From contig NZ_JANZNQ010000001.1 of the NCBI RefSeq assembly GCF_027257955.1, forward strand, positions 310,001-374,000: a DNA stretch of 64,000 nucleotides. Direction: 5' to 3'. Positions within the stretch are counted from its first letter, which is position 1. Each line of letters opens with the position of its first letter. The translations under genes and the position numbers were made by a program. Positions 27,482 to 33,037 of this stretch are shown here, in pieces. The notes under the pieces were generated by a model. That model saw only the letters and a list, made by a program, of their open reading frames with translations. It did not search any database and had not been told where the DNA came from. Source of the stretch: Zhongshania aquatica (GTDB lineage Bacteria; Pseudomonadota; Gammaproteobacteria; Pseudomonadales; Spongiibacteraceae).

Positions 27482-27556
27482 TGGGGTGTCGCCAAGTGGT
27501 AAGGCACTGGGTTTTGATCTCAGCATCCGTAGGTTCGAGTCCTACCACCCCAGCCA
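27482..27556 (+). tRNA. tRNA-Gln (anticodon TTG)
   Basis: A complete cloverleaf: acceptor stem TGGGGTG paired with CACCCCA, discriminator G at 27553 and an encoded CCA (27554-27556). The anticodon stem is CTGGG/CTCAG with loop TTTTGAT, giving anticodon TTG, and the T-loop is TTCGAGT. It sits between ispE and prs, its usual place in gammaproteobacteria, and may be transcribed with ispE. Confidence 0.97.
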
Positions 27557-31085: not shown

Positions 31086-31102
31086 GCCGAGCTGATCGGC
31101 GC

Positions 31103-31131
31103 TTGACAAGGTGCGCCGATCCTTGGAAAAT
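31103..31131 (+). promoter_or_regulatory. Sigma-70 promoter of tRNA-Met with GC-rich discriminator
   Basis: TTGACA (31103-31108), a 17-bp spacer, then GAAAAT (31126-31131), followed directly by GCGCGCC. A consensus -35, optimal spacing and a GC-rich discriminator are the hallmark of growth-rate and (p)ppGpp-controlled stable-RNA promoters. The tRNA begins at 31160. Confidence 0.75.
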
Positions 31132-31159
31132 GCGCGCCTTCTCTCGATAGAGAGACTGT

Positions 31160-31236
31160 GGCAAGGTAGCTCAGTTGGTTAGAGCACAACACTCATAATG
31201 TTGGGGTCGGCGGTTCGAATCCGCCCCTTGCTACCA
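31160..31236 (+). tRNA. tRNA-Met (anticodon CAT)
   Basis: A complete cloverleaf with acceptor GGCAAGG/CCTTGCT (first pair G-U), discriminator A and an encoded CCA (31234-31236). The anticodon stem is CAACA/TGTTG with loop CTCATAA, and the T-arm is GGCGG TTCGAAT CCGCC. The body resembles elongator tRNA-Met; a lysidine-modified tRNA-Ile2 has the same anticodon and cannot be fully excluded by eye. Its 3' end plus flank (31225-31240) is repeated exactly at 31608-31623. Confidence 0.95.
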
Positions 31237-31240
31237 TTAT

Positions 31241-31424
31241 TCGAAGAAACCACCTTACGGTGGTTTTTTTTCGCCCCAAGTAAAGCACTCCACACTCAAC
31301 GGGTGGATGAGAACCGCCGCGCGGTTCGATAAAATGCGGCCAGCATTTTAGACGGCGATAGCCGCCCAACGGGGCAATAACAGGCCCAAGCCTGTTATTG
31401 ATCAATCCGCTATACGCCTCACCA
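31241..31424 (+). repeat. tRNA-Met downstream repeat, unit 1 (rtT-like)
   Basis: First of two tandem units of about 190 bp directly after tRNA-Met. The core 31271-31408 aligns without gaps to 31461-31598 with 11 differences in 138 positions. Stem-loops in order: GAACCGC/GCGGTTC, AAAATGC/GCATTTT, GGC-gata-GCC, GCCC-aacg-GGGC and an 11-bp stem with arms 31375-31385 and 31390-31400. No credible coding frame exists. The arrangement recalls the E. coli tyrT rtT repeats, which also carry tRNA 3'-end copies. Confidence 0.8.
31247..31271 (+). terminator. Intrinsic terminator after tRNA-Met
   Basis: Arms AAACCACC (31247-31254) and GGTGGTTT (31259-31266) with loop TTAC, followed by an uninterrupted T-run. 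This is a classic Rho-independent terminator and also the first part of repeat unit 1. In unit 2 the corresponding stem is degraded, although the T-run remains. Confidence 0.88.
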
Positions 31425-31607
31425 CCACTATTCGAAGAGTCCACCTACGGATGTTTTTTTTCGCCCCAAGTAAAGCACTCCACACTCAGCGGGTGAATGA
31501 GAACCGCCGCGCGGTTCGATAAAATGCGACCAACATTTTAGACGGCAACAGCCGCCCGAAGGGGCAATAGCAGGCCAAAGCCTGCTATTGATCAATCCAC
31601 AGCCCGT
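31425..31607 (+). repeat. tRNA-Met downstream repeat, unit 2 (rtT-like)
   Basis: Second tandem unit. It opens with a degenerate tRNA 3' end (CCACTATTCGAAG, about 31425-31437). Of the 11 core differences from unit 1, six fall in apparent hairpin loops, and two form one compensatory pair in the 11-bp stem (arms 31565-31575 and 31580-31590): A-T in unit 1 becomes G-C here. One change breaks an inner pair of the AAAATGC stem. On balance the pattern suggests selection on RNA structure. Confidence 0.8.
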
Positions 31608-31640
31608 CCCTTGCTACCATTATCCAAAAAAACCACCATT
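31608..31640 (+). repeat. Third, partial tRNA-Met 3'-end copy
   Basis: Positions 31608-31623 repeat 31225-31240 exactly (16 nt: the last 12 bases of the tRNA including CCA, plus four bases of flank), and AAACCACC follows as in unit 1. It closes the tandem array. The rest up to 31795 is A/C-rich, with no gene seen. Confidence 0.8.
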
Positions 31641-31795
31641 TCAAACAGAACCACCACCAAACAAACTCACACCCCAAGCAATTTGCGACTAATATCCTAT
31701 CAACACACCAAGTTTAAAATGACACGTAGCCACTTATAAAACCAATAGCTTACCGAGTGACCCAACTTCAGCGACAGCCAATACAGGAACAACAA

Positions 31796-33037
31796 ATGTC
31801 ATCTAATGCTTTCCAGCGCATCTATCAAACTCTCGGCCTGACAGGTGACCAAGAGCCCCGTGACCCGACAAACCCGCCGCAAAGAAATCCGCCATCGCCG
31901 CTCCCCACTTTCGTCAACTTCATTCGCTCGCGCTTTAGCCTGATAAATCAGCCCCCAAAGGCTGAAGAGATAGCTGCAGCGTTTACACGACGCCTAGAAA
32001 CCGCACTACAGGATCTAGATAAACAATTAGCCAGTTGCGACCTTTTTACCTTGCCGGCCGGCTCACACGAATGGACGGATACAGGTATTAGCCTGGCGGC
32101 GGGTGAGTCAGTAACACTAATGGGAGATGGCGGCCTTTACCTGTCGCGACGGCTCGACGTCGTCATTGGCGCAAACTTTGGCCTGTGGTATCGAATCGTT
32201 AAGCAGGATGGCACGGGATATATCAATACGCTTCCTCTGGGCGGCGCTATTGTTACCGCGGAACACGGCGGCACATTAGAACTCATTGCGGCGGTACCGG
32301 GTGAGTTTGGTGATTCACAGGGCGGATTTGATCCGAGCATGGCAAGCTTGCAGGTTAACGGACAGTTTGCCGTCGCCGTCCTACGCTGGCGGGCGGATAC
32401 AGAGAAATCTTTAACTACGGCTGCAACTGCCGACGAAGATTTGTTTGGGCCAGTACTAGCGCGCTTTAAAGAGCCTATTCGGCCCCCGAAAGGCTGGCAC
32501 TATTTATGGCGTTTAGGCGAAAGTGAAATATACCAAGAGAAAGAAGATGTACTGTGTTGTACCACACATGCTAATGGCGGAATCTTGCAGTACCCAGTAA
32601 ATATGGCGCTGAACAGCGATTTAGTCTTTAACTGGCAATGGTGTGTTGACGCTTTACCATCTAAATTAGCCGAGCATATTCAACCCACACATGACTACCT
32701 GTCTATCGCAATAGAGTTCGACAATGGCCTTGATCTTACCTATATGTGGAGCAGCAACCTCGACGTAGATACTATATTTCAGTGCCCGCTGCCATGGTGG
32801 GATAAGCGCGAAACCCATTGGGTTCTGCGAAACAATCCTACAGATTTAGGACGCTGGCTCAATGAATCTCGTAATGTCCTCGCGGACTACCAACGCGCCA
32901 TTGGCGGGCCATTACCCGAAAAAGTAGTTGGTGTGTGGCTGATTGCTAATTCAGCCTTCCAACGAGGCGAAGGACATTGCCGCTATCGCAAGATAAAATT
33001 ACAAAATGAACAAGGCACAAAAATCATCTACAGCTAA
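31796..33037 (+). CDS. DUF3047 protein with possible LecA-like N-terminal domain
   Basis: 413 residues with no signal peptide. The C-terminal half (about residues 225-410) matches DUF3047: FNWQWCVDALPSKLAE, HDYLSIAIEFDNGLDLTYMW, CPLPWWDKRETHWVLR, NVLADYQRAIGGPLPEK and VVGVWLIANSAFQRGEG. The central region (about residues 85-200) resembles the calcium-dependent lectin LecA (PA-IL) in pattern, with WTDTGISLAAGESVTL, LPLGGAIV and a VPGEFGDSQGGF loop; this is a weak, by-eye match. ATG 31796 has AGGA seven bases upstream; GTG 31757 is an alternative. Function is unknown. Confidence 0.8.
   Translation: MSSNAFQRIYQTLGLTGDQEPRDPTNPPQRNPPSPLPTFVNFIRSRFSLINQPPKAEEIAAAFTRRLETALQDLDKQLASCDLFTLPAGSHEWTDTGISLAAGESVTLMGDGGLYLSRRLDVVIGANFGLWYRIVKQDGTGYINTLPLGGAIVTAEHGGTLELIAAVPGEFGDSQGGFDPSMASLQVNGQFAVAVLRWRADTEKSLTTAATADEDLFGPVLARFKEPIRPPKGWHYLWRLGESEIYQEKEDVLCCTTHANGGILQYPVNMALNSDLVFNWQWCVDALPSKLAEHIQPTHDYLSIAIEFDNGLDLTYMWSSNLDVDTIFQCPLPWWDKRETHWVLRNNPTDLGRWLNESRNVLADYQRAIGGPLPEKVVGVWLIANSAFQRGEGHCRYRKIKLQNEQGTKIIYS

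Follow-up and report, generated by a model that had tools for sequence, protein, structure and literature searches.

RtT has so far been a puzzle, an RNA belonging to a single tRNA operon of E. coli; in E. coli MG1655, four RtT units lie behind tyrT and tyrV. Among DNA systems, integron attC sites and IS200/IS605-type elements are handled by an enzyme supplied in trans, with a folded single strand as its substrate, and tRNA T-loops are known integrase sites. In an RNA-folding paper (PMC7657543), RtT is described as containing a tandem GA motif. REP/REPIN sequences and other bacterial MITEs are gene-less palindromic elements present in many copies (PMC3116915, PMC2817692).

The locus considered here lies in the window, by which we mean the whole stretch of 64,000 nucleotides of Zhongshania aquatica that was analysed. 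An intact tRNA-Met(CAT) is followed there by two units that have the layout of RtT, being tandem repeats behind a tRNA, each closed by a tRNA 3'-end copy. Within each unit the order is an inverted partial T-arm, GGTTCGA, a core that we call module M, ATCC, and the tRNA 3'-end copy:

31160..31236, + strand: intact tRNA-Met(CAT), source of the T-loop halves copied in the units (ARAGORN; Rfam tRNA, 72.5 bits)
31247..31270, + strand: terminator-like hairpin and T-run between tRNA-Met and unit 1 (predicted fold and sequence)
31301..31319, + strand: unit 1, part of the tRNA T-arm copied in inverted orientation (inverted repeat I1, 83% over 23 nt)
31323..31329, + strand: unit 1, 5' half of the T-arm, GGTTCGA, whose last base is A58 (sequence; rule tested across units)
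31330..31404, + strand: unit 1, module M, 75 nt, four hairpins (match of the core-only model R3, contig positions 341330-341404)
31405..31427, + strand: unit 1, 3' half of the T-arm from N59, with a degenerate tRNA 3'-end copy (sequence, repeat search)
31491..31509, + strand: unit 2, part of the tRNA T-arm copied in inverted orientation (inverted repeat I2)
31513..31519, + strand: unit 2, 5' half of the T-arm, GGTTCGA (sequence)
31520..31594, + strand: unit 2, module M, 75 nt (R3 match, contig positions 341520-341594)
31595..31623, + strand: unit 2, 3' half of the T-arm and tRNA 3'-end copy, of which the 16 nt at 31608-31623 are exact (sequence)

A pattern scan for terminators reported none at 31247..31270, and in an Rfam scan of the window only the tRNA reaches its cut-off at the array. 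The direct repeats 31256-31408 and 31446-31598 are 92% identical at a spacing of 190, with 13 differences in 153 nt, and the 11 differences that the sequence-only reading had counted fall in the last 138 nt. Its other observations on the letters were likewise borne out: the exact 16-nt copy of the tRNA 3' end (CCCTTGCTACCATTAT) occurs at 31225 and again at 31608; unit 1 does carry a degenerate copy, which our repeat search places at 31417; six differences, read by hand, lie in hairpin loops (31339, 31357, 31359, 31368, 31370 and 31387); and one stem pair is compensated in both arms, 31380 A>G with 31395 T>C turning A-T into G-C. That reading had overlooked a further difference, 31343 G>A, by which unit 2 loses one stem pair. 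Both units beat 200 of 200 dinucleotide shuffles in folding (z -6.26 and -3.63).

For comparison with RtT and with other genomes, three covariance models were used: R1, built on 10 sequences; R2, on 120; and R3, which contains M only, without tRNA letters. E. coli rtT and the window units share the same succession of parts (inverted T-arm, GGTTCGA, hairpins, CCCGAAGGG, hairpin, ATCC, tRNA 3' end) and the tandem arrangement, with units of about 180 bp in rtT and about 190 in the window. They differ in that the window array stands behind tRNA-Met and has a terminator-like hairpin ahead of it. The RtT model (RF00391) gives no match in the window at its gathering cut-off (45 bits), nor any up to E 10 in 31100-31800; its best place in the same genome is a tRNA-Ser unit at 23.5 bits, below the cut-off. 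The four rtT units are the top four matches of our models at the E. coli locus (21-25 bits with R1, 28-33 bits with R2), and R3 does not find them. The two sets are joined by bridge loci in other genomes, behind tRNA-Tyr and tRNA-Ser, which score with the RtT model 63.1 bits (L148), 57.1 and 50.1 (L161), 55.4 (L152), 48.0 twice (L197) and 46.4 (L194), and with R2 54.7-62.6 bits. Because these loci pass both the RtT cut-off and R2, we hold RtT and the window family to be one wider family, and place the window units in this RtT-like family without assigning them to RF00391. At L152, a group II intron match (2233-2380) lies close to the RtT-like units behind tRNA-Tyr.

BLAST finds relatives of the array at the same tRNA within the genus. 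In its own genome, R1 matches six places, after tRNA-Met, tRNA-Ser(GGA), tRNA-Arg(CCG) and tRNA-Leu(TAA), the E values of 8e-30 and 3e-28 there belonging to training-set sequences. The covariance-model search of related genomes that the sequence-only reading had proposed proved positive, with R1 matches in 50 of 115 relatives (E 0.01) and R2 matches in 116 of 369 genomes of the class, or 94 of 272 genera (E 0.001); at E 0.0001, R2 also matched 54 of 398 genomes of the phylum, some of them outside the class. With relatives at the same tRNA in the genus and model matches in many other genomes, the array is therefore not a chance arrangement. A pattern scan returned 93 genome-contig stretches, including Zhongshania, Spongiibacter, Litorivivens, Microbulbifer, Alcanivorax and Marinobacter, and a few MAGs labelled as outside Gammaproteobacteria.

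After removal of repeats of the same stretch, 312 units were collected, related genomes among them not being independent. In 161 the unit lies 24-97 nt 3' of a same-strand tRNA, and 25 isoacceptors are represented; another 70, mostly further array copies, lie 121-1000 nt downstream of a same-strand tRNA and 9 lie farther. The remaining 72 have no same-strand tRNA upstream in the fetched stretch (for one of them, a tRNA on the opposite strand stands within 300 nt), many being cut by contig or locus ends: 20 had less than 150 nt of upstream sequence, and many of the other 52 show a piece of tRNA. One unit stands behind a tmRNA. Truly tRNA-remote copies were seen in G025 (L084, L086-L088, L029) and in G086 (L076, L082), and the remote modules of G086 lie within other long inverted repeats. 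R3, searching with the core only, recovers the same loci in 30 of 38 genomes, so the tRNA association is not built into the search. The likeness to rtT that had been noticed from the letters thus stands, in the order of parts and through the bridge loci; with 25 isoacceptors and one tmRNA, an independent RNA or trailer at tRNA-Met is too narrow a description. The tRNA-Gln of the window (27482-27556), which precedes prs, has no unit; a tRNA-Gln in another genome (G020, L069), where a prs-like reading frame also comes next, does have a unit.

The flanks of M show where in the tRNA the module sits. In the 144 units in which T60-T65 match the local tRNA, the base following M is the N59 of that tRNA in 119 of 122 cases for A, 15 of 16 for T (many of these being tRNA-Phe of a few genera, and so not independent) and 3 of 6 for G. 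The base before A58 follows the tRNA as well: G57 tRNAs are accompanied by TTCGA in all 123 readable units, and A57 tRNAs by TTCA in all four. The agreement of N59 and R57 shows that M sits in a copied T-loop, after A58 and before N59. Over 12 nt of right flank, identity is 0.72 to the local tRNA versus 0.50 to non-cognate tRNAs, and the local tRNA is better in 82 of 95. The loci used in these flank tests were selected in part by score and in part by hand, and those from the pattern scan through a pattern that itself contains GGTTCGA. The half-T-arms around M therefore derive from the neighbouring local tRNA, and an intact copy of that tRNA adjoins. The left flank that is shared is usually a T-arm half of only 5-8 nt, and it is mostly the 3' end of the tRNA, together with trailer and terminator, that has been duplicated, as in RtT.

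At a few loci the duplicated flank is instead the promoter and the tRNA 5' body. In four such mirror loci (L258, L284, L168 and L257) the sequence left of M repeats the promoter side and 5' body of the downstream intact tRNA, with exact left matches of 132, 80, 77 and 47 nt and a right half of 7-11 nt; L263 and L265 also look mirror-like by eye, and at L168 a single tRNA-Ser has a mirror unit before it and ordinary units behind. The duplicated flank may thus be either side of the tRNA, and since mirror units carry the tRNA 5' half, the 3'-end copy that first drew attention is just one half of a split T-loop. We found no description for RtT of a family at many tRNAs or of a mirror form, and a literature search turned up nothing on RtT-like units beside other tRNAs. 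The ends of M are also visible without any tRNA: R3 coordinates give 14 exact abutments of M against M at 9 loci, all in the window's genus, with five copies in a row in one genome (G008), and reading six of the nine loci showed head-to-tail joins with no tRNA letters between them. M is a gene-less module of about 63-98 bp composed of three or four adjacent near-perfect hairpins.

From the discrete module, the defined insertion point and the duplication that spares one tRNA, we infer recombination of folded M DNA, and consider it reasonably probable that the array consists of two units of a gene-less, T-loop-specific recombining DNA module whose family is widespread and RtT-like. M would recombine as a unit and insert at the T-arm palindrome, the substrate probably being folded single-stranded DNA and the enzymes being supplied in trans or by the host. 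Cells would survive only where tandem duplication or homologous recombination spares one intact tRNA, leaving arrays of the form tRNA-M-(half tRNA) whose copy number may then shift through unequal recombination. Any RNA made from M would be secondary. Such a module resembles integron attC sites and IS200/IS605-type ends in its short foldable DNA ends and precise joints, but its site is a T-loop rather than attI or a tetranucleotide, and no integrase or transposase of these kinds is tied to the units. Unlike REP/REPIN sequences, the M family has few copies, is tied to tRNAs and has flanks copied from the local tRNA, and RAYT/Y1 is missing in 11 of 30 unit-bearing genomes. HUH transposases were considered as the mover and rejected: Y1 is missing in those 11 genomes and Y2 in 26 of the 30, so that the units do not co-occur with Y1 or Y2 as MITEs of an HUH transposase (IS200/IS605, RAYT or IS91 type) would.

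An alternative that we regard as unlikely is that read-through or processing of the tRNA transcript yields a structured RtT-like RNA, such as a trailer sponge or a tRNA mimic with a T-arm, which selection maintains. E. coli rtT carries a non-coding RNA annotation and RtT is an Rfam family; the great majority of units lie on the strand of the tRNA; some stand within tRNA operons without a terminator (L148, L161, L166); the window shows a compensatory change and the family shows covariation; and the GA/GA motif that the RNA-folding paper names for RtT (PMC7657543) also occurs in the window family. The pairing in the hairpins bears on this directly. Across 309 unique cores, counted after helices with less than 70% Watson-Crick pairs had been excluded (which makes hp3 uninformative in this count), hp1 is 97% and hp4 94% Watson-Crick, and the two together have 44 G.U and 48 A.C pairs. 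Where selection acts on the RNA of one strand, stems are expected to favour G.U, as do the controls at the same loci, with G.U:A.C ratios of 14:0 in tRNA acceptor stems and 15:1 in terminators (29:1 together). The main hairpins scarcely do so, which speaks for hairpins maintained at the DNA level, and after this wobble test the RNA-only reading was retained as a rival. Some RNA-like skew remains once end pairs are excluded (30:22, or 35:16 in a separate hand count) and in helix PA (37:9, though the right arm of PA is fixed by the T-arm).

The outer helix of inverted T-arm and right arm was set aside as weak covariation evidence, being only slightly better with the local partner than with a swapped one (-9.89 vs -8.10 kcal/mol; stronger in 60 of 95). 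A selected RNA also fits poorly with a first survey in which 31 of 52 distinct tRNA genes (not all of which adjoin a unit) were followed by a terminator-like hairpin, with the mirror units, which place M within an otherwise full tRNA 5' body, and with the distribution in E. coli, where the RtT unit matches 4680 of 5426 genomes, at 1-9 places each, and has no match in the other 746 at this sensitivity. Where the sequence-only reading had inferred a non-coding RNA or structured trailers, the location behind the tRNA's terminator-like hairpin, the lack of G.U excess in the main hairpins and the mirror units thus all weigh against the RNA part of its inference.

A recombining DNA module can also be set against passive spread without dedicated mobility, in which slippage at palindromes and ectopic recombination through the shared tRNA T-arm (GGTTCGA...TCC) would produce the arrays. 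We hold this to be improbable. It agrees with the tandem arrays and their drifting copies, with the 5-8 nt T-arm half that usually makes up the shared left flank and with the lack of a resident HUH transposase that tracks the units, but the family reaches other classes, and sharp M ends, direct joints of M with M and the exact A58/N59 site at many tRNAs call for a defined reaction. The similarity of M between loci describes the turnover of units. Within the genus it is highest at the same tRNA (0.743, 118 pairs), indicating inheritance of the units; between genera, sharing a tRNA confers no gain (0.556 in 159 pairs vs 0.559 in 1996 pairs at other tRNAs), so in the long term units come and go or change tRNA. 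Units at different tRNAs are not specially alike within one genome (0.623 in 66 pairs vs 0.639 in 436 pairs within the genus), which gives no sign of a recent burst, and by these pairwise values concerted evolution within a genome was not seen. Among the 17 other genomes of the genus, one (G001) has no R3 unit and an empty tRNA-Met site.

That the units are scars or attachment sites of tRNA-integrating phages or islands is very improbable: islands do occur at the same tRNAs, but in G004 an island of about 16 kb that encodes a tyrosine integrase (PF13356, PF00589, PF22022; L188, 2922-19901) lies between tRNA-Ser(GCT) and its unit array, parting the tRNA from a pre-existing array and so ruling out M as the island's end, while the reading frames of the window show no integrase adjoining M or inside the units of about 190 bp, and viral contigs, with zero matches to the pattern that gave the 93 genome-contig stretches, offer no sign of phage carriage.

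Beyond the mobile-module reading of the window array, and at slightly less than even weight, we propose that RtT is one manifestation of a gene-less mobile element that forms a class of its own in Pseudomonadota. This folding module would enter the T-loop of almost every kind of tRNA gene, or of tmRNA, at A58/N59, would copy one flank, on either side, so as to spare an intact tRNA, could stack on itself and would be moved by a possibly universal host enzyme. If RtT does belong to a phylum-wide family with an exact T-loop site, its repeats, its tRNA-end copies and its location beside a tRNA would receive a single explanation, and its nature could be tested with assays of T-arm joining. RtT would then also be an unusual example among gene-less elements, living off the most conserved sequence of the genome. 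The covariance model should be useful to annotators for the many unannotated repeats beside tRNAs.

Genes or other sequences lie between or within units at some loci. Behind tRNA-Ser(GGA) in G228 (L169, 1849-7216), a HigB-type toxin gene with its HTH partner stands between units, as does a MazE-like antitoxin gene, and behind tRNA-Met in G017 (L190, 2845-4473) a PKD-like lipoprotein gene, named by eye, does so; these cases, too few for more, are suggestive of gene capture by arrays. Several units, at L017, L019, L021, L024 and L061, are broken up or cut off by a similar sequence whose ends resemble GGCTCTACAACATTAACGGGGGA and which may be an insertion sequence.
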